This document shows, one piece after another, positions 2,629 through 20,104 of a stretch of DNA of 42,168 nt. Source of the stretch: Gallionella sp. (GTDB lineage: Bacteria; Pseudomonadota; Gammaproteobacteria; Burkholderiales; Gallionellaceae); NCBI GenBank assembly GCA_030652475.1, contig JAUSAO010000113.1, positions 1 to 42,168 of the forward strand, read 5' to 3'. The notes beneath the pieces were generated by a model. That model was not told the origin of the DNA and made no database searches. It saw only the letters and a list, made by a program, of their open reading frames with translations. Numbering within the stretch: position 1 is the stretch's first letter; each line of letters starts with the position of its first letter. The translations under genes were made by a program, and so were the position numbers.

Positions 2629-3093
2629 TCAGTGCGTCCCGGTCCCGGATACCTTGTTCGCTGCATCGAAGCCACCCTTGGCCTTCCATTCGGTAAATCC
2701 GCCCTGCAGGATGCGTACATTTTCGTATCCTGTCACGCGCAGCGCAAAGCCGGCCTGAGCCGACAGCGTTCCAGTGTTGCAGTAAATGAGTACCGGCTTG
2801 TCTTTTGGAATTGACTGTCGTTCGGCAAGTACCTTGCGCCACTCAAGATTAACGGCGCCTGGGATATGCTCCCTGGCATACTGGTTTTTATCGCGCGCAT
2901 CAATGACAAAGAACTTTTTCCAATCGTCTTTCGGAATTTGTTCGGAAAAGATGGTCGCACCACCGTAGTCAACGAAATCGAGATAGGCTTCCATTTCTTC
3001 CACTGCCAGGTCTTTGTTGTCGGCGAAAGCGACCGAAGTAAAAAGCAAAGCACCGGTTGCGAGGATGACGGTTGAAAGGGAGGTAAGTTTCAT
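2629..3093 (-). CDS. Exported single-domain rhodanese
   Basis: A 154-residue protein with an N-terminal signal peptide (basic MK start, hydrophobic stretch to about residue 22, AFA-D cleavage site). A rhodanese domain of about 110 residues follows. The catalytic cysteine is C105 in IYCNTGT, and the IDARD and HIPGAVN motifs are present. Rhodaneses carry a persulfide on this cysteine and transfer sulfane sulfur; this one should act in the periplasm. AAGGA precedes the ATG at good spacing. It is the last gene of the minus-strand run containing the SHOCT, barrel, LolA-like and RND genes, separated from them by about 157 bases in which no gene is seen. The acceptor of the sulfur is unknown. Confidence 0.88.
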   Translation of the reverse strand: MKLTSLSTVILATGALLFTSVAFADNKDLAVEEMEAYLDFVDYGGATIFSEQIPKDDWKKFFVIDARDKNQYAREHIPGAVNLEWRKVLAERQSIPKDKPVLIYCNTGTLSAQAGFALRVTGYENVRILQGGFTEWKAKGGFDAANKVSGTGTH

Positions 3094-8976: not shown

Positions 8977-10104
8977 CTATCGATATTTGCGCAAGTACCA
9001 CGATTCGAAAAATGCCTTGGCACTATGCATCAGTCCCAGCGGCGGCAAGGACATCTCGCTGTCCGGCGTGCGCCGCATCAACATGCCTGAATCCAGACTG
9101 TCAACAATGCAAAGCAGTTCTACTTTGAAGGTTTTTTCCGGAATCCTGCCATTCAGTTCAGCCAGTAAATTTTCGGCTGCGGTTTCACCTTGCAGGTCGG
9201 CCATATGCGCCTGTTTGGGCATCCAGTCTGGCCCGGGGAAGCTGCCGGAATCGCCAATGACATACACGCATGCATTTCCCTCGACACGGCACTGGGCGTC
9301 CGCCTTGAGGAGACCGCCAGGAGAGCGGGGCAGACTGGTATTGTCGAACCATGCGTTGCCCGTCAGACCGGGCATAAAAATGATCAGGTCGGCGGCAAAC
9401 TCGCCACCCTCAGTCTTTACTTTATCCGCCTCGAAGCCGACCAGCTTGTGACCGAGTTGCTTCTTGATGTCGCGTTTATCCATCTCAGCCATCAGGCGTT
9501 GTACCGCACGCTCACCCAAGCGGTTGCCGGGGTTGGGCATGGGATTGAAGAAGGTGAGGCCAATTTCACCCCGTCGCCCTTCACGGCGTAACTGGGTATC
9601 CAGTCCGAACAGAAACTCGAAAATCGGGCCGCCGCGCATGGCGGACGGCTCGTTCGGATTACCCGCGAATCCCAGCGCGATGTTTCCCTGTTTGAGCGCA
9701 GCCACACGATCACGGATGTTTTCTGCTGCAGCGATGCCTTCGCACGGCAGGATGGCATGTTCGATACCCGGCAGTTTCTTGATGAAGCGTCCGCCACTGG
9801 CGATGATCAGGCCATCGTTCTCCACCTTGCCTGTAGCGGTCAGCACCGTGCGCCCGCCATTTTCCAGTCCGGTCGCCTCGCCAGCGACAAAACGGATATG
9901 CTGCTCGCGCAGAAAGCGGTCAAGTGGAATGCGTAAGTCTTCTGCTTTACGCTTGCCGGAAGGTATCCAGATCAGGCTGGGCAGAAATATCAGCTCCGGC
10001 CTGGGCGCAATGATCGTGATTTCGACTCCGGCATCAAGCTGGCGCAATTTACGCGCCGCAGACAGTGCGGCAAAACCGATACCGATGATAGTGATTTGTT
10101 TCAT
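8977..10104 (-). CDS. FAD-dependent oxidoreductase, sulfide:quinone oxidoreductase-like
   Basis: A 375-residue flavoprotein with an N-terminal dinucleotide-binding fold (GIGFAALSAARKL), the SQR/FccB-like layout, a second nucleotide-fold ending in VYVIGDSGSFPGPDWMPKQAHMADLQG, and a C-terminal helix region (SGMLMRR). SQRs oxidise sulfide to sulfane sulfur and reduce quinone. Cysteines at about 120 and in LLCIVDS may be redox active, but I cannot place the three canonical SQR cysteines with confidence, so the exact type is open. Its upstream MFS gene ends three bases before the start and the amidotransferase follows. Nearby persulfide-dioxygenase-like, DsrE and rhodanese genes support a sulfide role. 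Confidence 0.8.
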   Translation of the reverse strand: MKQITIIGIGFAALSAARKLRQLDAGVEITIIAPRPELIFLPSLIWIPSGKRKAEDLRIPLDRFLREQHIRFVAGEATGLENGGRTVLTATGKVENDGLIIASGGRFIKKLPGIEHAILPCEGIAAAENIRDRVAALKQGNIALGFAGNPNEPSAMRGGPIFEFLFGLDTQLRREGRRGEIGLTFFNPMPNPGNRLGERAVQRLMAEMDKRDIKKQLGHKLVGFEADKVKTEGGEFAADLIIFMPGLTGNAWFDNTSLPRSPGGLLKADAQCRVEGNACVYVIGDSGSFPGPDWMPKQAHMADLQGETAAENLLAELNGRIPEKTFKVELLCIVDSLDSGMLMRRTPDSEMSLPPLGLMHSAKAFFESWYLRKYR

Positions 10105-10107
10105 GAT

Positions 10108-11415
10108 TTATCCCCTTGGTGTCATTGGATTAATGCGCGGATGCGTCTCTTCACCAAACAGCCAGAGCAGACCTCCCGACAAAAACATCGAGATCGCCAC
10201 AAACCAGAAGGCGGCTTCTACTGTGCCACTAAAATGCGCCGTGACACCCAGTCCGAGCGCGCCGATGCCATAGCCCAGATCACGCCAGAAGCGGTAGATG
10301 CCGATGGCCGAACCGCGCCAGTCAGGGTGGGAAATGTCAGCTATGGCCGCAGAGAGATTCGGATACAACAGCGCCATGCCAAAGCCGGTAATGGCGGCCG
10401 AGAACGACCACCATGCCATGCCTTCCTGTAACAGCATCATCGCTACACCTGCACCGCATATCCACATACCCCACACATTGGGTTTGTGACGACCAATATG
10501 GTCGGACAGTTTTCCGGTAAAGAACTGTGAACCGCCCCAGACGATGCCATAGATGCCAACGACCCAGCCGACCTCGGGCAGGCTCAGTCCGCGCTGATAG
10601 AGAAACACCGGATAGAAAACCCACACCAGCGCATCGACAAATTTTTCTACCAGCCCCGCCTGGCTGATGGCGGCCAAACGCTTATCGCGCCACGAAACCA
10701 GTGTGAACACTTCCCATGTTGTCGGCTTCACGCCGATGTTGGCCGGATAGCGCGGTTTCAAGACGGTTGACGGCGCTGCTGCGTGCTTGGCCGCTTCCAG
10801 CTTGGCCCAGGGTAAGGTGTCCTTGACCCACAGCAGGGTGAGCAGTATGGCCAGCAAGATCGTCGTCATGCCGAACAGCAGCAACCCGCTGCGCGCCCCC
10901 ATCATGGTCGCCAGGTAGGCGGTGATGATGCCCGCCAGTGCCAGCCCGACATAACCTGCGAACTCGTTCATGCCTATGGTCAGGCCGCGCTGGTCGGCGC
11001 GGGTGATATCCAGCTTGGAGGTTTGCGTCATCGACCAGGTCAGGCCCTGATTGACGCCCAGTAATACGGTGGCAGCCACGATCCAGCCCCATGATGGCGC
11101 AAAATATACCATCAGTGGGATGGGGAGTGCGGCAGCCCAACCCAGCAGCAAAACCTTCTTGCGACCAATGCGTTCGGACAAGCGACCCGCCACAAAATTG
11201 AGTGATCCCTTTACAAAGCCGAAAGCAACCACAAATGCAGTCAGCAGCATGAATGAGTTTTTAGGGACACCGAATTCAGATTCGGACAGAGCCGGAATAA
11301 CCGTGCGCATCATGCCGATAGTAAATCCCACCAGCATGACTTGCAGCAGTTGATGCAGAAACTGGTCGAGATTGGCGCGAATGCCGTGCGAGAGATTGCT
11401 GTGTTGCATGGTCAT
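10108..11415 (-). CDS. MFS transporter
   Basis: About 435 residues and 12 predicted membrane segments. Conserved features include GRLSERIGRKKVLLLG in the loop after helix 2 and GKLSDHIGRHKPN in the loop after helix 8, the paired signature motifs of the major facilitator superfamily. I place the start at 11415 (AAAGG six bases upstream). A longer frame to 11463 would read through the tandem 9-mer repeat and adds a hydrophobic cysteine-rich stretch that looks spurious. It is the first gene of a minus-strand run with the SQR-like flavoprotein and amidotransferase. The substrate is unknown; a sulfur oxyanion or other sulfur compound would fit the setting. Confidence 0.85.
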   Translation of the reverse strand: MTMQHSNLSHGIRANLDQFLHQLLQVMLVGFTIGMMRTVIPALSESEFGVPKNSFMLLTAFVVAFGFVKGSLNFVAGRLSERIGRKKVLLLGWAAALPIPLMVYFAPSWGWIVAATVLLGVNQGLTWSMTQTSKLDITRADQRGLTIGMNEFAGYVGLALAGIITAYLATMMGARSGLLLFGMTTILLAILLTLLWVKDTLPWAKLEAAKHAAAPSTVLKPRYPANIGVKPTTWEVFTLVSWRDKRLAAISQAGLVEKFVDALVWVFYPVFLYQRGLSLPEVGWVVGIYGIVWGGSQFFTGKLSDHIGRHKPNVWGMWICGAGVAMMLLQEGMAWWSFSAAITGFGMALLYPNLSAAIADISHPDWRGSAIGIYRFWRDLGYGIGALGLGVTAHFSGTVEAAFWFVAISMFLSGGLLWLFGEETHPRINPMTPRG

Positions 11416-11557: not shown

Positions 11558-12289
11558 TCAGGCTGCGATGTTCGCAGCGACCATTTTGTCCATCTCGGCA
11601 GGACGAGGAGGAATCTCACTGAGCAGCGCTTCGATGAAGGCTGCTCTGTCCATCGACAGCGCCTGGTTCCAGCGTTTCTCAAAACCGATGGTCGAGCTCG
11701 GTTTTCCCGAAAGACCCACACCACAGACACTACCCGCCTGGTGCCCGGGGAAAATTTCAACTTCGTTGGACAGGTGCAGCAATTTACTGTGGATGCTGTC
11801 GTAGAGTTGCGCAGACATTTCCCGCTCGCGCCCCAGCAGATCCGGGCGACCAATCGAGCCGACGAATAAGGTGTCGCCCGTGAGCACGAACCAGGGTAGT
11901 TCCCCGCGACGCATATCCGTTACCAGCAGGCAGATGCTGTCTGGTGTATGACCTGGTGTATGCAGTACTTCGACGTTGACGTTGCCCAGGTTAAGCGATT
12001 GACCGTCCGTCAAGGATTCAAACTCGAACTTGACGAGACCCTGGTCCGATTCGTGCAGGCAGTATGGCGCACCGACCATTTGTGCGAGCTTTCTGCCGCC
12101 GGAATAATGGTCGGCATGAACGTGGGTATCAATGACGTAGTTGATAGTGACATTCGCTTTTTTTGCCTCCTCGATATACCACTCCTCGTCGCCTGCGACC
12201 ACGTCCACCGCCATGGACTTGCCTTTGGTGCCGCAGCCGAAAAAATACGACAGTGAAGACTCCTTTGTTGACAGTTGTTTGAAAAACAT
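11558..12289 (-). CDS. MBL-fold hydrolase, ETHE1/persulfide dioxygenase-like
   Basis: A 243-residue metallo-beta-lactamase-fold protein. The metal-binding motif THVHADH, a second histidine in HTPGHTPDS, the aspartate in LTGDTLFVGSIGRPD and the histidine in FPGHQAGS fit the ETHE1-like branch, which oxidises glutathione persulfide to sulfite with a single iron. There is no fused rhodanese domain. GGGAGA precedes the ATG. It is 16 bases downstream of the DsrE gene and shares its promoter. Given the neighbours, removal of sulfane sulfur produced by an SQR-like enzyme is the most likely role. A glyoxalase II-like activity cannot be excluded from sequence alone. Confidence 0.85.
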   Translation of the reverse strand: MFFKQLSTKESSLSYFFGCGTKGKSMAVDVVAGDEEWYIEEAKKANVTINYVIDTHVHADHYSGGRKLAQMVGAPYCLHESDQGLVKFEFESLTDGQSLNLGNVNVEVLHTPGHTPDSICLLVTDMRRGELPWFVLTGDTLFVGSIGRPDLLGREREMSAQLYDSIHSKLLHLSNEVEIFPGHQAGSVCGVGLSGKPSSTIGFEKRWNQALSMDRAAFIEALLSEIPPRPAEMDKMVAANIAA

Positions 12290-12305
12290 CGCACTCTCCC
12301 TGAAA

Positions 12306-12656
12306 TTAAAACACTAAAACCTTATCTGCCCACATAGTCCACTCAGCCAATTCAGCCAGCGTGCTGCGGTGCGTTCCATCGGCTACATCGCTATCGCCCA
12401 TGCCGCGTGCATCCATGCAAGTGCCGCAGATGCCGACTTCCCCGCCATGGCGAATCACGTTACCGATCATTACCTCTACGTTATAGAAACCGGGTGGCAC
12501 TTTCTGGTTGCGGTGCGCCGATGCGGCTCCATCGCCAATCAGAAAAACGCGCACCTTGCATTCATCTTTCCTGGTCATGGCCGCTGCCAAGCGCAAACCG
12601 TTATAGGTACGCTCGCTACCGTAAGGTGCATCGTTGAGGATAAACAGGGTATTCAT
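12306..12656 (-). CDS. DsrE-family sulfur relay protein
   Basis: A 116-residue protein with the DsrE/DsrF-like fold: FILNDAPYGSERTYNGLRLA at the start and a conserved cysteine motif GICGTCMDARG (C77, C80) where family members carry transferred sulfur. It has no signal peptide and should be cytoplasmic. A very strong ribosome binding site (AAGGAGGTT) precedes the ATG. It is the first gene of the operon with the persulfide-dioxygenase-like hydrolase and faces the ArsR-rhodanese gene. It may shuttle protein persulfide between a rhodanese and the dioxygenase. Confidence 0.87.
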   Translation of the reverse strand: MNTLFILNDAPYGSERTYNGLRLAAAMTRKDECKVRVFLIGDGAASAHRNQKVPPGFYNVEVMIGNVIRHGGEVGICGTCMDARGMGDSDVADGTHRSTLAELAEWTMWADKVLVF

Positions 12657-12680
12657 GGCAACCTCCTTCGGCTGATTAAC

Positions 12681-12700
12681 AATCTAGTAAAAACTAGAAT
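12681..12700. promoter_or_regulatory. Candidate ArsR operator palindrome over the dsrE start site
   Basis: The arms CTAGT and ACTAG, with a near-match A/T extension, form an imperfect 20-base palindrome centred on AAAAA. It begins immediately after the predicted -10 box of the minus-strand promoter and so covers the expected transcription start. This is a usual repression position for ArsR-family dimers, and the regulator is encoded divergently next to it. Confidence 0.6.
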
Positions 12701-12701
12701 G

Positions 12702-12730
12702 ATTAAACTCCTCCTGTTAATTTATGTCAA
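12702..12730 (-). promoter_or_regulatory. Predicted sigma70 promoter of the dsrE-hydrolase operon
   Basis: On the minus strand TTGACA (12725-12730) and TTTAAT (12702-12707) are separated by exactly 17 bases. The -35 box is a perfect consensus. The start site would fall near 12695, inside the CTAGT palindrome, leaving a leader of about 40 bases before the DsrE start codon. Confidence 0.7.
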
Positions 12731-12780
12731 GATAATTTATAGTTGTACCTGCATATACCAATTATTGATGGATTGATAGC

Positions 12781-13431
12781 ATGAAAGACGCACGCAAGAT
12801 CAAAAATCTGCTTTATGAACAGGTGGCGAGAATAGGCAAGGTTTTTTCCAGCCCCAAGCGGCTGGAGTTGATCGAATTGCTCTGTCAGGGAGAAAAGACG
12901 GTAGAAACGCTGGCGCGCGAAACTGCCATCAGTGTGAAGCTGACCAGCTCACATTTGCGCGAGTTGCGCATGGCGCATCTGGTCGAGACCGAGCGACAGG
13001 GTAAGAATATCTACTACCGCCTCGCCGACAAGTCGGTAGCCGACCTGTGGGTGCAGATACATACGCTGGCTGAGGAACGTCTGATCGAATTGCAACTGGC
13101 ATTACAGAAGATCGCCACACAGCCTGACGATCTGGTGGCCAATGATCGCGACAGCCTGATGAAGGCGGCACGCAAGGGCGAGATAGTGGTACTCGACGTA
13201 AGGCCAGCGGAGGAATACCTGAACGCGCATTTACCATTTGCCCGTTCCATTCCACTGGAAGAACTGCGACTGCGACTGGCCGAGCTGCCAAAAGATCGCT
13301 CCATCGTTGCTTACTGTCGGGGCCCTTACTGCCTGTTGGCAGCCGACGCAGTCGCACTACTCAAACAGGAAGGCTATACCGCTATTCATCTGCGCGATGG
13401 TGTTGCCGAATGGGCTGTTGCGCGCGCGTGA
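12781..13431 (+). CDS. ArsR-family regulator fused to a rhodanese domain
   Basis: A 216-residue protein with two parts. Residues 1-100 form a winged helix: FSSPKRLELIELLCQGEKTVETLARET, then SVKLTSSHLRELRMAHLVE as recognition helix and RQGKNIYYRL as wing. Residues 120-216 form a rhodanese domain with DVRPAEEYLNAHLP and the active loop AYCRGPYC (C179 as catalytic cysteine, C184 beyond). The metal-site cysteine pairs of classical ArsR sensors are missing; only C35 lies in the DNA-binding half. The rhodanese domain may therefore sense sulfane sulfur by persulfidation. The gene is transcribed away from the DsrE/hydrolase operon and probably represses it. Its 3' end overlaps an antisense pump relic by about 50 bases. 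Confidence 0.9.
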   Translation: MKDARKIKNLLYEQVARIGKVFSSPKRLELIELLCQGEKTVETLARETAISVKLTSSHLRELRMAHLVETERQGKNIYYRLADKSVADLWVQIHTLAEERLIELQLALQKIATQPDDLVANDRDSLMKAARKGEIVVLDVRPAEEYLNAHLPFARSIPLEELRLRLAELPKDRSIVAYCRGPYCLLAADAVALLKQEGYTAIHLRDGVAEWAVARA

Positions 13432-13648
13432 CAGAACCAAAACGCAGATATATTGCAGGCACTACGATCATGTTGAAAATCGTCGCTGAGATCAGCCCGC
13501 AAAGAATGACCACTGCCATCGGAGCCTGAATTTCAGCAACCGGGATTGGAAGGAAAGCGGAGTTGTTCTGGGGTAAAATCGACAACAGGGCGAGTGCAAG
13601 CAGGCATTTTTTACGAATCGGTTTATTTGATAATTTCAACCATATCAA
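13382..13648 (-). pseudogene. C-terminal relic of a CzcA/CusA-type RND pump
   Basis: The segment at about 13439-13534 encodes EIQAPMAVVILCGLISATIF and then NMIVVPAIYLRFG, matching the last membrane helix of heavy-metal RND pumps. The intact CzcA of this window has SEIQSPMAIVILFGLASSTL and NMIVVPALYLRFG at the same place. By eye the DNA of the two is only moderately similar, so the relic is not a recent duplicate of the intact gene. Everything upstream of the match is unrelated or frameshifted, so about 95 percent of the gene is gone. Its tail overlaps the end of the ArsR-rhodanese gene on the other strand. Confidence 0.75.
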
Positions 13649-14207: not shown

Positions 14208-15434
14208 ATGCGACACTTATTATCCGTAGTTCTGCTCGCGCTGCCGCTGGCCGCGTGGGCGCAAGCCGATCCTATAGCTACACTCACCGAAGCCGAGGCC
14301 GTCCGCTTCGGACTGGCGCGCACCGACCTGTCCGATCTGGAGCGTGGAACCATCGAGTTGGCAGAGGCCGATGCTCAGGCCGCCGGGCTTCTTCCCAATC
14401 CCACCCTTGGCTATAGCCGCGATCGCAACCGGGGAACAACTGGCGCCACTGAAGAGTTCTGGCAAATCGCCCAGACCTTCGACGTATCCGGTCGTCGTGG
14501 ACTGCGTCGCGAGGCGGCAGACCGCCGTGTCGATGGAGCGAATGCCGGCAACACCCTGCGAAGGAGCGAAATCGCTGCAGAAATCCGCCACCGCTTCCAT
14601 GAAACGCTGTTCAGGCAGGAAACCGTCCGGGCGACCGAAACCTGGACACAGCGCTTCATCCGCGTCGAGCGTCTGGTCGAAAAACTTGCCAAGGCCGGGG
14701 AAGCATCCGGCTACGACCGGCGTCGGCTTACCCGTGAGCGACAGACGGCGCAAGCCCGACTGAGCACCGAACAGGCCGATCTCGACCGTGCCTCGGAACG
14801 TCTGGCAGCGCTGATCGGCCTTCCGGGCAAAGCCGCCGCAAGCGTCAGCGGCGTCTTGTCACCCACTGCAACGTCACCCCTCGATAAAGCGCTGTCACGG
14901 CTGGAACAGCGACCGGACCTGCAAGTCCTGTCACGCCGCGCCGAGGCTGCCGACCTTGAAGGTCGGGCGGCATCGCGCGGATGGGTGCCGGATGTGACGT
15001 TGGGTGTCGGTCCGAAGCACACCGACAACGGCATCACGCGGGAGAACGGCACACACGTTACGTTTTCGATTCCCTTGCCTGTTTTCGATCGCCAGCAAGC
15101 CGGCGAGAAACGCGCGCTGGCCGAGGCGCTCAATGCCCGCGCCGAATACAGCCTGACCCGCGCCCGCGCCGAGGGCGAACTGCGCGGCCTGCATCGTCAG
15201 GTCGAACGCCTGGCTACGGCGGCCAACGACTACCGCACCCATGCGGTAGTCGAGTCATCCGAGTTGCTGCGCATCGCCGAAGCCGCCTACCAGGGCGGCG
15301 AATCCACCTTACTTGAACTGCTCGATGCTTACCGCGGCGCGTTGGAAACCGAAATTACGGCCCTCAATCTCGAATGGAAAGCGCGTGTAGCCCTCATCGA
15401 ATATGACTTACTGACCGGGAGTGTCACCGAATGA
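14208..15434 (+). CDS. czcC: TolC-family outer membrane factor of a heavy-metal efflux system (CzcC)
   Basis: A 408-residue protein with signal peptide (cleavage after AAWAQA) and two long alpha-helical hairpin repeats typical of TolC-family channels (for example LAEADAQAAGLLPNPTLGY in the first half and RAEAADLEGRAASRGWVPDV in the second). In the family three subunits form the outer-membrane duct of an RND pump. Its stop overlaps the start of the adaptor gene by four bases (ATGA). The length is normal for CzcC/CusC proteins. The start at 14208 has GAGGAA upstream. Confidence 0.9.
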   Translation: MRHLLSVVLLALPLAAWAQADPIATLTEAEAVRFGLARTDLSDLERGTIELAEADAQAAGLLPNPTLGYSRDRNRGTTGATEEFWQIAQTFDVSGRRGLRREAADRRVDGANAGNTLRRSEIAAEIRHRFHETLFRQETVRATETWTQRFIRVERLVEKLAKAGEASGYDRRRLTRERQTAQARLSTEQADLDRASERLAALIGLPGKAAASVSGVLSPTATSPLDKALSRLEQRPDLQVLSRRAEAADLEGRAASRGWVPDVTLGVGPKHTDNGITRENGTHVTFSIPLPVFDRQQAGEKRALAEALNARAEYSLTRARAEGELRGLHRQVERLATAANDYRTHAVVESSELLRIAEAAYQGGESTLLELLDAYRGALETEITALNLEWKARVALIEYDLLTGSVTE

Positions 15435-16987
15435 ACAAATATCTGATTGCAACTCTTTGTGCCGCACTGTTACTTACCGCTTGCGGCGATGCCGGCAACA
15501 AACAGGCCATGGACGAAAGCCATGCGCCCACGGCTGATGGCGGCCATGGCCACGGGGTCGGCGGCGAAAAGCTCACCCACTTCACCGACAAGACTGAGCT
15601 CTTCGTCGAGTTCCCGCGCCTGGTGGTTGGTGAAGAATCCGCTTTCGCCGCGCACCTCACGCGGCTTGCCGACTTCAGGGCGCTACCTGCCGGCAAGGTG
15701 AGCGTCATCCTTAGCGGAGGCGGCCAGCCGGACGAGGTGTTTGCCACCGAGACGCCGACACAGCACGGCATCTTCCGCCCGGAAGCTTTGCCGAAGCAGG
15801 CTGGCGAGCGGGAATTGGCCATCGAGGTGGCCACCACGGAATTCACCGTGCGCCATTTGCTCGGTCCGGTAACGGTCTACGCCGATCGTAAGGCTGCCGA
15901 CGCGGCGAGCGGCGAACACGACGAGGGGGGCATTGGTTTCACCAAGGAACAACAATGGAAGGTGGATTTTGCCACCGCCGAGGTCGTCAAACGCCCCATC
16001 CGCGCTGCTATCGCAGCCACCGGTACGCTACGCGCCCGACCAGACGGCGAGGCGCTGCTGAGCGCGCCGGCCCCGGGACAGGTGCAGACAACCGGCAAGT
16101 TCCCCCAACTCGGACAGGCCGTGAAGAAGGGCGACATCCTTGCCTATCTCACGCCGCGTCTCGGTGGCGACGTGGATATGGCCTCGCTCCAGGCCGACGC
16201 GCGTAAAGCACGGGTGGCACTGGACCTGGCCGTGCGTGAGCGCTCCCGCATGGAGAGCCTGTTCAAGGACGAGGCTGTGCCGGAGAAACGGCTGCTCGCC
16301 GCCCGCGCTGCCGAGGAATCGGCCCGCGCAGAATTCGACGCCGCCCAGGGGCGCCAAGGCCAATATGGCGGCGGCGCCGGCGGTGTGCCGCTGCGCGCGC
16401 CGGTGTCGGGCACGATTGCCGATGTCCGCGTCTCACCGGGGGCTTTTATGCAGGAAGGCGCCTTGCTCTTTCACATCATTGACCGGCGCGTCCTGTGGCT
16501 GGAATTGCGCGTGCCTGAATCGGAGGCGGCCCGTTTAGCCTCGCCGAGCGGCGCGACGTTCCGGGTGGAGGGGGTCGAGCAAAGTTTCGAGATCGTCCCG
16601 GGCAAGAACGGCCGCCTGATTGCCACCGGCGGCGCAGTGGATGCGGTGACGCGCACCGTGCCGGTGCTTTTCGAATTCGCGCAGCCGGACGAGCGGCTGC
16701 GTATCGGCATGGCTGTCAAGGCGCAAGTTTTCGCCGGCGCCGCGAGTGAAGTGGTGGCTGTTCCCGCATCGGCCGTGCTCGACGAGAGCGGCGTGCCGAC
16801 CGTGTTTGTGATGACCGGGGGCGAATCCTTTGAACGGCGGCCGGTGCGCATTGGTGCCCGGGATGGCGATTGGCTGGAGGTCGTCGAGGGGCTGGAGCCG
16901 GGGCAGCGCGTGGTTACGCGCGGTGCCTATCTGGTCAAGCTCGCCGCCACCAAGACCGGCGAAATCGGTCATGGTCACGCACACTAA
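15431..16987 (+). CDS. czcB: RND efflux periplasmic adaptor lipoprotein (CzcB)
   Basis: A 518-residue membrane-fusion protein. The lipobox LLTAC puts lipidation at C18. Residues 20-40 are His-rich (GGHGHGVGG). An extra domain at about 45-160 precedes the adaptor core: a barrel/lipoyl half (SAPAPGQVQTTGKFPQLGQAV), a helical hairpin of about 80 residues, the second lipoyl half (LRAPVSGTIADVRVSPGAF), and beta-barrel and membrane-proximal domains. The protein ends in HGHAH. The His-rich ends suggest metal binding in the periplasm before hand-over to the pump. It overlaps czcC by four bases and precedes czcA by 12 bases. Confidence 0.9.
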   Translation: MNKYLIATLCAALLLTACGDAGNKQAMDESHAPTADGGHGHGVGGEKLTHFTDKTELFVEFPRLVVGEESAFAAHLTRLADFRALPAGKVSVILSGGGQPDEVFATETPTQHGIFRPEALPKQAGERELAIEVATTEFTVRHLLGPVTVYADRKAADAASGEHDEGGIGFTKEQQWKVDFATAEVVKRPIRAAIAATGTLRARPDGEALLSAPAPGQVQTTGKFPQLGQAVKKGDILAYLTPRLGGDVDMASLQADARKARVALDLAVRERSRMESLFKDEAVPEKRLLAARAAEESARAEFDAAQGRQGQYGGGAGGVPLRAPVSGTIADVRVSPGAFMQEGALLFHIIDRRVLWLELRVPESEAARLASPSGATFRVEGVEQSFEIVPGKNGRLIATGGAVDAVTRTVPVLFEFAQPDERLRIGMAVKAQVFAGAASEVVAVPASAVLDESGVPTVFVMTGGESFERRPVRIGARDGDWLEVVEGLEPGQRVVTRGAYLVKLAATKTGEIGHGHAH

Positions 16988-16999
16988 CTGGAGAATGAC

Positions 17000-19900
17000 A
17001 TGATCGGACACATCATTGCGTGGTCGCTACGCAACAAACTTTTTGTCGTCCTCGCCGGTGTTTTGCTGCTGGCCTGGGGCGGCTGGCAGGCAGCGCGCAC
17101 GCCGGTGGACGTTTTTCCCGACCTCACGGCGCCCGCGGTAACCGTGGTGACCGAGGCTCATGGCATGGCGCCGACCGATGTCGAAAGCCTGGTTACATTC
17201 CCCATTGAAACAGCCCTGAACGGCGCGCCCAACGTGCGGCGGGTACGTTCCGCCACCAAGATCGGGCTGTCCGTCGTGACGGTCGAATTCGAATGGGGAA
17301 CCGACCTTTATCTCGCCCGCCAGGTAGTGGCCGAACGCCTGCAACTGGCGCGCGCGAGCCTGCCGCCGGACATTCCCGCGCCGGCGATGACCCCGGCGTC
17401 TTCGATCATGGGCGAGATTCTGTTCATCGCGCTGACCTCGGACAAGCATTCCGGCATGGAAATGAAGAACGTCGCCGAACAGGTACTGAAGCGCCGGATT
17501 CTGGCCGTCCCCGGCGTTGCCGAAGTGCTGCCAATCGGCGGCGATACCCAGCAGTTCCAGGTGACGGTGAAACCCGAACGGCTGGCGACTTACCAGCTAA
17601 CCCTGGACGAGGTGACGCAGGCGCTACGCGAGTCCAACCAGAACGCCTCTGCCGGCTTCTACGTCGAATCCGGTCAGGAATACCTGATCCAGGGCCAGGG
17701 CCGCATCGCGGTGCTGGAGGATATTGCCGACACGGTGATCAAAGTACGCGAAGGTCAGCCCATACTCATCCGTGACGTGGCCGACGTGGGTATTGGCGCG
17801 GCGCCCAAGCGCGGTGTCGGTTCCCACAACGGCAAGCCAGCCGTGGTGCTGGGCATCCAGAAACAGCCTGGCGCCAATACCCTGGAACTGACTGACCGGC
17901 TTGACCTCACACTGGCGGACATCCAGGCCGGCCTGCCGGTAGGGATGAAGATCGAAAGCCACATCTTCCGCCAGGCGGACTTCATCCGCGTTTCCATCGA
18001 CAACCTGCTCGCAGCCCTGGGAGAGGGGGCTGTCCTGGTGATCGCCATCGTCTTCGCCTTCCTGCTTTCGGCACGAGCCACGGCGATTACCCTAGTCGCC
18101 ATTCCGCTGTCGCTGGTGGCGGCCATCCTCTCGATGAAGGCGCTCGGCGCCACCATCAACACCATGACGCTGGGCGGCATGGCTATTGCCCTCGGTGCGC
18201 TGGTGGACGACGCGATTATCGTGGTCGAGAACATCGTCCGGCGATTGCGCGAGAATCTCTCGAAACCGGAAAGCGAGCAACGTACTGCGGTGCAGGTGGT
18301 GTTTGAGGCGACCAGGGAAATCCAGGGTTCCATCGTCTTCGCGACGCTGATCATCATGCTGGTGTTCATCCCACTTTTCTTCCTCTCAGGCGTGGAGGGT
18401 CGGCTGATGGCGCCGCTCGGTTTCGCCTATGTGGTGTCGCTGGCCGCGTCACTGATGGTGGCGATCACGGTAACGCCGGTACTGGCGGCGCTGTTCCTGC
18501 CCCGCTCGAAGATCGTCCGCGAGAACGTCGAACCGCGCTTCATCCATTTCCTGCACGCGACCTATCGGCGGGTACTGGAAGCCACGGTCACACGCTGGCA
18601 GTTGGTGACAGCTGTGAGCGTCGTCGCGCTGGTCATCTCTCTGGTCGCACTCTCCTTCGCCGGCCGTGCCTTCCTGCCGGACTTCAACGAAGGTACGCTG
18701 ACCATCGGCACCGCCACGCTGCCAGGTACCGCGCTGGAGGAGTCCGACCGCTTGGGTCAGATGGTCGAGCAGATCCTGCTTTCACACCCGGAGGTGGTGG
18801 CTACGGCCCGACGCACCGGTCGTGCCGAGGGCGACCCGCATGCCATGGACGTATCGGCGTCCGAAATGGAAGTGACCCTGAAGATGGGCGAGCGCAGCAA
18901 GGAGGACTTCCTCGCCGCCCTGCGCGACGACCTCTCGACCGTGCCCGGCACCCAGATCGTGGTCGGCCAGCCGATTTCACACCGCATCGACCACATGCTC
19001 TCAGGCAGCCGCTCCAACATCGCGGTGAAGATTCTAGGCCCCAACCTGGGCGAATTGCGCCGCCTGACCGGGGAAATCAAGACGCTGGTGCAAACCGTGG
19101 AGGGTGCCGTGGACGTTACCGACGAGCAGCAAAGCGACATCCCCTTCCTGACCATCCGCTTCAAGCGGGACGCCCTGGCCCGGCACGGCCTTTCCATCCG
19201 GCAGGTGGCGGAAACCATCGAGGTGGCGTTTTCCGGCATGGCAGTGAGCCGCGTCCAGCAGGGTCAGGCGACCTACGACCTGGCGGTGCGCTTCGATCCG
19301 GCGGCGAAAGCCAGCCTCGACGCCATCCGCTCCACCCTGGTTACTACGGAGAGTGGCGCGCGCTTGCCGCTCTCCGCGCTGGCCGAGATCCGCAACGACC
19401 GGGCACCGTACTCCATCTCTCGTGAGAACGTGCAGCGCAAGATGGTGGTGATGGCCAACGTCGCCGGGCGCGATCTGGCGAGCGTGGTGGACGACATTCG
19501 GCGCAAGGTGGCGGCGGAGGTGAAGATGCCGCCGGGCTATCACATAGAATATGGTGGACAGTTCGAGAGCGCCGAAGAGGCCAGCCGCATCCTGCTGTTC
19601 CTGGGCTTCGCAGTCACCGTCGGCATCTTTCTTTTGCTTTTCGTTGCTTTCCGCACCGCCCGCGACGCGCTGCTGGTCATGCTCAATCTGCCGCTCGCCA
19701 TCATCGGCGGGGTGATTGGCGTATTTGTCGCGGGTGGCGTCCTTTCGGTGGCCTCGATCATCGGCTTCATCACGCTGTTTGGCATCGCCACCCGCAACGG
19801 CGTGATGATGATCGCCCATATCCATCATCTGGTGGAACACGAGGGCATACGCGACGCGGCGGAGGCCGTCAAACGCGGTGCAGAGGAGCGTCTGGTGCCC

Positions 19901-20104
19901 ATCCTGATGACCGCCCTGGCTGCCGGTCTCGCCCTGGTCCCGCTGGCGCTCGCCGCCGGACAACCGGGCAGCGAAATCCAGTCGCCGATGGCCATCGTCA
20001 TCCTGTTCGGGCTGGCCAGTTCCACGCTGCTCAACATGATTGTCGTACCGGCGCTGTACCTGCGTTTCGGGGCCATCAGCGTAACCCAAGCGCCGACAAA
20101 ATAA
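17000..20104 (+). CDS. czcA: Heavy-metal efflux RND permease (CzcA/CusA family)
   Basis: A 1034-residue inner-membrane pump with 12 predicted helices and two large periplasmic domains. It opens with MIGHIIAWSLRNKLFVVLAG and PVDVFPDL, typical of HME-RND pumps. The proton-relay helix 4 reads ALGALVDDAIIVVEN, which keeps the paired aspartates and glutamate but lacks the DFG triplet of the best-studied CzcA proteins, so the exact metal (zinc/cobalt/cadmium, nickel or copper/silver) cannot be fixed. It ends in the usual NMIVVPALYLRFG helix. GGAG precedes the ATG. It pairs with the adaptor and outer-membrane genes just upstream. Confidence 0.93.
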   Translation: MIGHIIAWSLRNKLFVVLAGVLLLAWGGWQAARTPVDVFPDLTAPAVTVVTEAHGMAPTDVESLVTFPIETALNGAPNVRRVRSATKIGLSVVTVEFEWGTDLYLARQVVAERLQLARASLPPDIPAPAMTPASSIMGEILFIALTSDKHSGMEMKNVAEQVLKRRILAVPGVAEVLPIGGDTQQFQVTVKPERLATYQLTLDEVTQALRESNQNASAGFYVESGQEYLIQGQGRIAVLEDIADTVIKVREGQPILIRDVADVGIGAAPKRGVGSHNGKPAVVLGIQKQPGANTLELTDRLDLTLADIQAGLPVGMKIESHIFRQADFIRVSIDNLLAALGEGAVLVIAIVFAFLLSARATAITLVAIPLSLVAAILSMKALGATINTMTLGGMAIALGALVDDAIIVVENIVRRLRENLSKPESEQRTAVQVVFEATREIQGSIVFATLIIMLVFIPLFFLSGVEGRLMAPLGFAYVVSLAASLMVAITVTPVLAALFLPRSKIVRENVEPRFIHFLHATYRRVLEATVTRWQLVTAVSVVALVISLVALSFAGRAFLPDFNEGTLTIGTATLPGTALEESDRLGQMVEQILLSHPEVVATARRTGRAEGDPHAMDVSASEMEVTLKMGERSKEDFLAALRDDLSTVPGTQIVVGQPISHRIDHMLSGSRSNIAVKILGPNLGELRRLTGEIKTLVQTVEGAVDVTDEQQSDIPFLTIRFKRDALARHGLSIRQVAETIEVAFSGMAVSRVQQGQATYDLAVRFDPAAKASLDAIRSTLVTTESGARLPLSALAEIRNDRAPYSISRENVQRKMVVMANVAGRDLASVVDDIRRKVAAEVKMPPGYHIEYGGQFESAEEASRILLFLGFAVTVGIFLLLFVAFRTARDALLVMLNLPLAIIGGVIGVFVAGGVLSVASIIGFITLFGIATRNGVMMIAHIHHLVEHEGIRDAAEAVKRGAEERLVPILMTALAAGLALVPLALAAGQPGSEIQSPMAIVILFGLASSTLLNMIVVPALYLRFGAISVTQAPTK

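Follow-up and report, generated by a model that had tools for sequence, protein, structure and literature searches.

What does a transcriptional regulator sense when its DNA-binding domain is fused to a rhodanese? The question is raised by P0001, a protein of 216 residues encoded on a Gallionella sp. contig (JAUSAO010000113.1; the 42,168 nucleotides analysed are called the window below), which joins an ArsR-type winged helix to a rhodanese domain, and whose gene diverges from genes for a DsrE-family protein and a candidate persulfide dioxygenase. The best explanation overall, to which we give a probability of roughly 0.7, is that P0001 acts as an autoregulated repressor and senses its signal through a pair of cysteines in the rhodanese. 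These cysteines would probably let P0001 sense reactive sulfur and turn on the adjoining sulfur-detoxifying genes.

The cysteine pair in the rhodanese loop

The gene for the regulator is located as follows.

12781..13431, plus strand: P0001, ArsR-rhodanese, 216 residues, ATG at 12781 (profile match and reading)

The winged helix occupies residues ~12-112 and is recognised by HTH_5 (PF01022, 37.3 bits, cut-off 22) and NF033788 (73 bits, cut-off 55), which places the protein in the ArsR/SmtB superfamily. The rhodanese follows at residues ~124-212 (PF00581, 50.4 bits, cut-off 22.2) and belongs to the rhodanese superfamily. An earlier reading of this DNA, made from the sequence alone and referred to here as the sequence-only reading, had described a 216-residue winged helix joined to a rhodanese with C179 and C184, and these matches bear it out. 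It was also right that C35 is the sole cysteine of the winged helix: P0001 has cysteines at 35, 179 and 184 only, with none from 36 to 178. The active-site loop, C179-R-G-P-Y-C184, has six residues and is opened by the catalytic cysteine.

Conservation was examined in 99 sequences, namely P0001 and its homologues at 98 loci, among which two pairs are identical over the last 180 residues (L040/L041 and L081/L092); three further loci (L051-L053), which repeat the window or contigs already included, stand outside this set. C179, R180, G181 and C184 are invariant in all 99. A non-redundant set was also used, consisting of 44 sequences (P0001 and 43 loci) from three phyla with less than 80% mutual identity, and here too C179 and C184 are both present throughout. 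The position of C35 is a cysteine in 54 of the 99 sequences and in 17 of the 44, and is Ala, Ser, Gly, Ile or Thr in the remaining 27 non-redundant proteins. The winged helix has no cysteine at all in 21/44, and in 17/44 the C179/C184 pair makes up the entire cysteine content of the protein. C35 was considered as the sensor and rejected, as it is not conserved. The suggestion in the sequence-only reading that sensing may occur in the fused rhodanese is thus partly supported, in that the sequences favour the invariant pair over the variable C35. By elimination and by its invariance, the C179/C184 pair is likely to be the sensor.

The loop is also unusual for a rhodanese. In a study of solved rhodaneses (PMC8533005), the last residue of the six-residue loop is Arg in 8, Thr in 3 and Ser in 2 of the 13 cases, and in three rhodaneses mutated at the loop end the residue was required to draw sulfur from thiosulfate. 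The Arg, Thr or Ser expected of an active thiosulfate sulfurtransferase is replaced by Cys in 99/99 of the sequences examined here. Rhodaneses from the same genome and related genomes were used as controls, taking the best-scoring matches rather than a random draw. No loop ending in Cys was found among the 32 that could be parsed of 36 tried (L180, L181, L184 and L192 were not parsed). Automatic parsing gave 27 loops ending in Arg, 3 in Leu, 1 in Ser and 1 in Ala; for the last two (L175 and L186) it took a wrong first loop, and by reading, the second loop ends in Arg. By these comparisons the loop of P0001 is atypical, with a second cysteine in place of the thiosulfate residue.

Thirteen rhodanese matches were obtained in the genome that contains the window, with one full-length homologue of the ArsR-rhodanese fusion among the matches listed. 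A second, separate rhodanese lies in the window at 2629-3093 on the minus strand; its loop reads CNTGTL and, by eye, it probably has a signal peptide.

A conserved box and probable operator

Four predicted control elements lie between the dsrE gene and the regulator gene.

12681..12700: O1, predicted operator, AATCTAGTAAAAACTAGAAT, of the form AWTCYA-N8-TRGAAT, over the predicted start of dsrE
12702..12730, minus strand: dsrE promoter, TTGACA (12730-12725), 17 bases, TTTAAT (12707-12702), from the sequence
12738..12743, plus strand: TATAGT, likely -10 element of the regulator, inferred from the sequence; its -35 element is weak
12755..12774: O2, predicted operator, ATACCAATTATTGATGGATT, differing from the box by one base, 6 bases upstream of the regulator ATG

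The dsrE promoter is present exactly as the sequence-only reading gave it; an automatic promoter scan did not report it, because TTTAAT lacks the A that the scan required at position 2. That reading had also placed a CTAGT/ACTAG palindrome on the dsrE start. The palindrome is there, within a longer conserved element of 20 bp. The 16-base form TCTAGT-AAAA-ACTAGA (12683-12698) has its sole exact match in the 3.06-Mb genome at this place. Taken by itself this is weak evidence, because shuffled versions of the window give on average 0.37 matches with two mismatches allowed, and it is conservation that makes the palindrome real. O2 was absent from the sequence-only reading and emerged as a second copy of the box in the present analysis. 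It sits downstream of TATAGT and overlaps the regulator's own start region, at a distance from O1 of 74 bp, start to start, or about seven helical turns.

The box was surveyed in a close set of 35 loci, consisting of the window and 34 full-length relatives, after eight partial matches (L043-L050) had been dropped from an initial homologue set of 42 loci. The relatives are named Gallionellaceae, Gallionella, Sideroxydans, Nitrosomonadales or just Proteobacteria. A site near dsrE matches AWTCYA-N8-TRGAWT at 11-12 of 12 positions in 33/35 loci, and an equally good second site stands immediately before the regulator ATG in 24/35. Both sites are present in 32 of the 35 if the second is accepted at 10 of 12, and in 26 of these 32 they are 74-75 bp apart. 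The exceptions are L023, L031, where the upstream region has been replaced, and L040, where the contig ends. TTGACA is found 24-25 bases from the first site in 31/35 loci, including the window, but not in L029, L031, L040 and L041. What is conserved beside the fusion is the 20-bp box; among the 35 loci, the complete CTAGT/ACTAG pair singled out by the sequence-only reading is confined to the window and to L035, its nearest relative. The Sideroxydans metagenome bin clean1836 encodes the regulator on four different contigs (L016, L025, L030 and L031), and at L031 an apparent transposase end stands where the operator region would be.

The 44 non-redundant sequences were then scored with the pattern ATTCnA-N8-TnGAAT, including a symmetric fifth base (maximum 11), over 150 bases upstream. 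A score of at least 9 was found in 32/44, compared to an average of 2.2 in dinucleotide shuffles; 10 was reached by 19/44 and 11 by 8/44, where the shuffles averaged 0.0 in both cases. With the half-sites set 3-7 or 9-13 bases apart, 0-6 of 44 sequences had score 9. This spacer control carries the weight, because the half-sites were picked after inspecting many of the same loci. The boxes of Lactiplantibacillus (ATTCAATAAATTATTTGAAT) and Cytobacillus (ATTCAATCAATAAGTTGAAT) both score 11 of 11 and that of Leuconostoc scores 10; the single Rhodococcus locus is weaker at 9, and Priestia has no box at score 9. The 20-bp box precedes the gene in Pseudomonadota and Bacillota, with one weaker copy in Actinomycetota. 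At loci where the regulator is the first gene of its operon, the box precedes the regulator itself. Our firmest inference is that P0001 binds this box, which we regard as very probable.

Across the same genome, the box is found with up to one mismatch in 54 places, two of them inside the 124-base gap between dsrE and the regulator, where chance would give about 47 by a hand estimate from base composition assuming 55% GC. A control with the backward pattern (11) speaks for the box, although it is an unfair yardstick, because its base make-up differs. There are four exact matches, which were the ones inspected individually, with the surrounding genes read by eye: O1, a site between two open reading frames (ORFs) resembling flagellar-export genes, a repeat-like stretch, and a short gap between diverging ORFs. 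A wider regulon in this genome was therefore rejected, as the 54 places are near the chance estimate and the exact matches suggest no second target.

Gene neighbourhood and possible signals

The genes on the other side of the operators, all on the minus strand and diverging from P0001, are listed in order away from it.

12306..12656, minus strand: dsrE, DsrE-family protein, 116 residues (DsrE 76.6 bits, cut-off 22.7)
11558..12289, minus strand: P0003, CstB/ETHE1-type persulfide dioxygenase candidate (PF00753 46.7 bits, THVHADH at 55, TGDTLFVGSIGRPDL at 137)
10108..11409, minus strand: MFS transporter, syntenic with the dioxygenase gene
8977..10104, minus strand: oxidoreductase dependent on flavin adenine dinucleotide (FAD), possible operon end

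P0003 has a metallo-beta-lactamase fold with dioxygenase-type relatives. Its best two matches of solved structure are 3r2u (3.7e-42), presumably CstB, and 3tp9 (2.3e-41), while ETHE1 (4chl, 2.3e-14) ranks lower, with several other entries ahead of it. It scores 56.2 bits on the curated Blh dioxygenase model NF040641 (cut-off 625), a model that spans a sulfurtransferase domain which P0003 is without. The sequence-only reading was correct that a DsrE and an ETHE1-like gene diverge from the regulator, except that P0003 appears closer to the 3r2u type than to ETHE1, and is best described as a candidate CstB-type persulfide dioxygenase. The FAD-dependent oxidoreductase has a distant likeness to sulfide:quinone reductases (72 bits, against a model cut-off of 525).

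This context recurs among relatives. The flanks are short in some loci, and the positive counts that follow are thus lower bounds. Of the 34 close relatives, 32 have a divergent DsrE gene and 25 have a dioxygenase gene no more than 2.4 kb away. The same order supplied another 17 loci (L071-L087, 53-73% identity), 14 of them with the dioxygenase and 10 with DsrE; among five loci at 56-77% identity (L128, L129, L163, L164 and L166) the dioxygenase is found in three; and relatives of the dioxygenase and the MFS transporter accompany the fusion in 5/8 plasmid loci (L120-L127), namely in Rhodococcus, Bosea, Cytobacillus, Cupriavidus and Sinorhizobium. At L013 the ORF after the regulator reads like a TauE/TSUP-type permease. 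Of 150 genomes sampled from the order, the present one included, 42 contain the fusion at full length, and in a sample of the phylum 43/299 genomes match at E below 1e-25.

The rhodanese fold, together with the dioxygenase as a neighbour in the clade of the window, makes sulfane sulfur fairly likely as the natural signal here; the case is weaker at other loci. The repressor would then work as follows. As an ArsR dimer, P0001 would occupy O1 at the dsrE start and O2 in its own start region, blocking both divergent promoters. C179, the catalytic cysteine, would accept a sulfane sulfur atom from a persulfide or polysulfide, and C184, at the loop end usually held by Arg, Thr or Ser, would close a C179-S(n)-C184 bridge. 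The bridge would alter the dimer and release the DNA, thereby inducing DsrE, the persulfide dioxygenase and the MFS gene, which would consume the signal. It is plausible that P0001 measures its own persulfidation; a C179-C184 disulfide, or a polysulfide bridge formed by other thiol oxidants, would match the sequence just as well.

Several observations weigh against this explanation. The rhodanese half is poor in both AlphaFold models, which were built on alignments of 18 and 35 close sequences and have mean pLDDT values of 68.2 and 63.9. On the DNA side, the survey of close loci had no shuffle control and accepted the second site at 10 of 12, and in 12 of the 44 non-redundant sequences no box reaches score 9 in the 150 bases upstream. 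Residue 53 of the recognition helix correlates cleanly with operator base 5 in 30 sequences (K53 with ATTCYA, A53 with ATTCAA; L075 and L084, with a mixed base 5, were left out), but a recognition code was rejected, as it is not significant: the tree contains two changes, and the number of independent pairs is one or two. Finally, at 33 distant loci with at most 47% identity (L130-L147, L149-L162 and L167), the dioxygenase is found in 4, DsrE in 3 and the MFS gene in 3, and the neighbours are instead fatty-acid-hydroxylase, VTT-rhodanese or other genes. The fatty-acid-hydroxylase (sterol-desaturase-like) recurs, being identified by Pfam in L145 and L161; TauE (L154) and a multi-haem cytochrome (L145) also occur. 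Similar hydroxylase ORFs, judged by look, are present in L131, L133, L137, L146, L150 and L160, and a VTT-domain membrane protein fused to a rhodanese lies near the ArsR-rhodanese gene at L133:5839-6825 and L150:5562-6602.

The scarcity of the dioxygenase at distant loci is one reason to consider that P0001 is a general thiol-oxidation sensor, in which a plain C179-C184 disulfide forms under peroxide, disulfide or chlorine stress and the sulfur genes are one kind of target. Cysteines at both ends of one loop could make a disulfide, and on Lactiplantibacillus and Leuconostoc plasmids (L123 and L124) the fusion stands in front of genes for thioredoxin, thioredoxin reductase and DsbA-family proteins, which such a sensor would fit too. 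Both of these loci have a good ATTCAA-N8-TTGAA box, and may be thiol-stress operons; on a Priestia plasmid, sulfurtransferase and thiol genes are near the fusion. A rhodanese fold with its catalytic cysteine kept in 99/99 sequences would however be odd for a plain redox switch, and the dioxygenase is a recurring neighbour in the window's own clade, so we consider a general thiol sensor unlikely. It is improbable, too, that the rhodanese came with the fusion as an ordinary sulfurtransferase that plays no part in regulation. The domain and its catalytic cysteine are intact, and a sulfur relay with DsrE is conceivable, since DsrE-family proteins include sulfur carriers, but an invariant cysteine takes the place of the loop-end residue linked to cleavage of thiosulfate, and the fusion occurs in three phyla.

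There is a slim chance that the pair, with or without C35, binds a soft metal and that P0001 senses metals or metalloids. NCBI calls relatives metalloregulators, and czcCBA-type RND metal-efflux genes, identified by eye, lie downstream of the regulator at 14208-20104 on the plus strand. Among 97 loci searched, however, high-identity czc copies occur only in the closest relative, L035, with weak CzcA or CzcB relatives (24-34% identity) in 7 others; metal sensing on the strength of these genes was therefore rejected, and the czc genes are probably outside the regulator's system. P0001 has neither the alpha-3 CxC nor the alpha-5 ligand set of metal-sensing ArsR/SmtB proteins: in an alignment with SmtB, the second His of its DHH stretch aligns with S85. 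The CmtR, TsoR and BigR models all score below cut-off (TsoR, NF045707, 60.8 bits against 115). A short frame at 13430-13530 on the minus strand, QAPMAVVILCGLISATIFNMIVVPAIYLRFGSV, is by eye close to the C-terminal end of the CzcA-type pump (17000-20104) and looks like a remnant of another pump gene.

A repressor that senses sulfur through its rhodanese cysteines thus remains our preferred explanation. Whether the same holds for the whole family we regard as evenly balanced: ArsR-rhodanese proteins would be single-protein sulfur sensors, a family that spans phyla. In them an enzyme active site would have been turned into a ligand-sensing site by exchange of the loop-end residue for Cys, with sulfur trapped as an internal polysulfide bridge, not passed on, and the trapped state read out via the 20-bp box. 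The pair suggests a route from sulfurtransferase to sensor and offers two exact residues to mutate. The named operator makes annotations as "metalloregulator ArsR/SmtB" testable across several phyla, for example in lactobacilli from food, in Bacillota from soil and in Gallionellaceae. In Gallionellaceae the DsrE, dioxygenase and MFS genes would also be linked to sulfur stress.

Comparison with known systems

The ArsR-rhodanese architecture itself was known. The closest solved winged helix is the ArsR domain of 2kko/3gw2 (a 108-residue chain, E 1.7e-17), which we take to be mycobacterial Mb0332/Rv0324, also followed by a rhodanese; there the winged helix alone was solved, and no entry matched both domains among the 39 solved sequences listed (best stretch of each). 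Annotated relatives are named metalloregulators by NCBI. Rhodanese-like domains in ArsR proteins have been remarked on in print (PMC3817168), in connection with the chromate regulator ChrB, which also has a C-terminal rhodanese domain; ChrB however responds to chromate, its loop is likened to the MST type, and the passage concerned does not call it an ArsR protein. No functional study of an ArsR-rhodanese was among the papers listed by searches of the open-access literature, subscription papers being mostly outside the search.

Two repressors of sulfur oxidation in Hyphomicrobium denitrificans, sHdrR and SoxR, are also of ArsR type and respond to sulfane sulfur (PMC10451225, PMC12423496), but SoxR, with 124 residues, is too short to contain a rhodanese. 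The BigR/SqrR/YgaV/HlyU group (cluster 4 of a sequence similarity network) shares the ArsR fold with P0001, and a dioxygenase is among the targets of BigR (PMC5823870). Besides BigR itself, the bigR operon encodes Blh, which fuses a sulfurtransferase to a dioxygenase, and a transporter related to TauE (PMC5823870). These components resemble those found beside P0001, except that the rhodanese-like domain is fused to the dioxygenase there and to the repressor here. P0001 scores 47.1 bits on the BigR equivalog model NF040642 (cut-off 155). The SqrR/YgaV box is ATTC-N8-GAAT (PMC9774250), whereas that of P0001 spaces the same half-sites 12 bases apart (ATTC-N12-GAAT); the shorter arrangement, equivalent to a spacer of 4 in our pattern, was found in 5/44 sequences against 2.3 in shuffles. 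P0001 may work like a BigR-type system, yet it lacks the defining features of BigR that were examined. Known persulfide-sensing ArsR proteins carry two cysteines within the DNA-binding winged helix, one in alpha-2 and one in alpha-5 (PMC10509353). This pair is absent from P0001, where the BigR alpha-2 cysteine aligns with E32 rather than C35, and the invariant pair is in the fused rhodanese instead.

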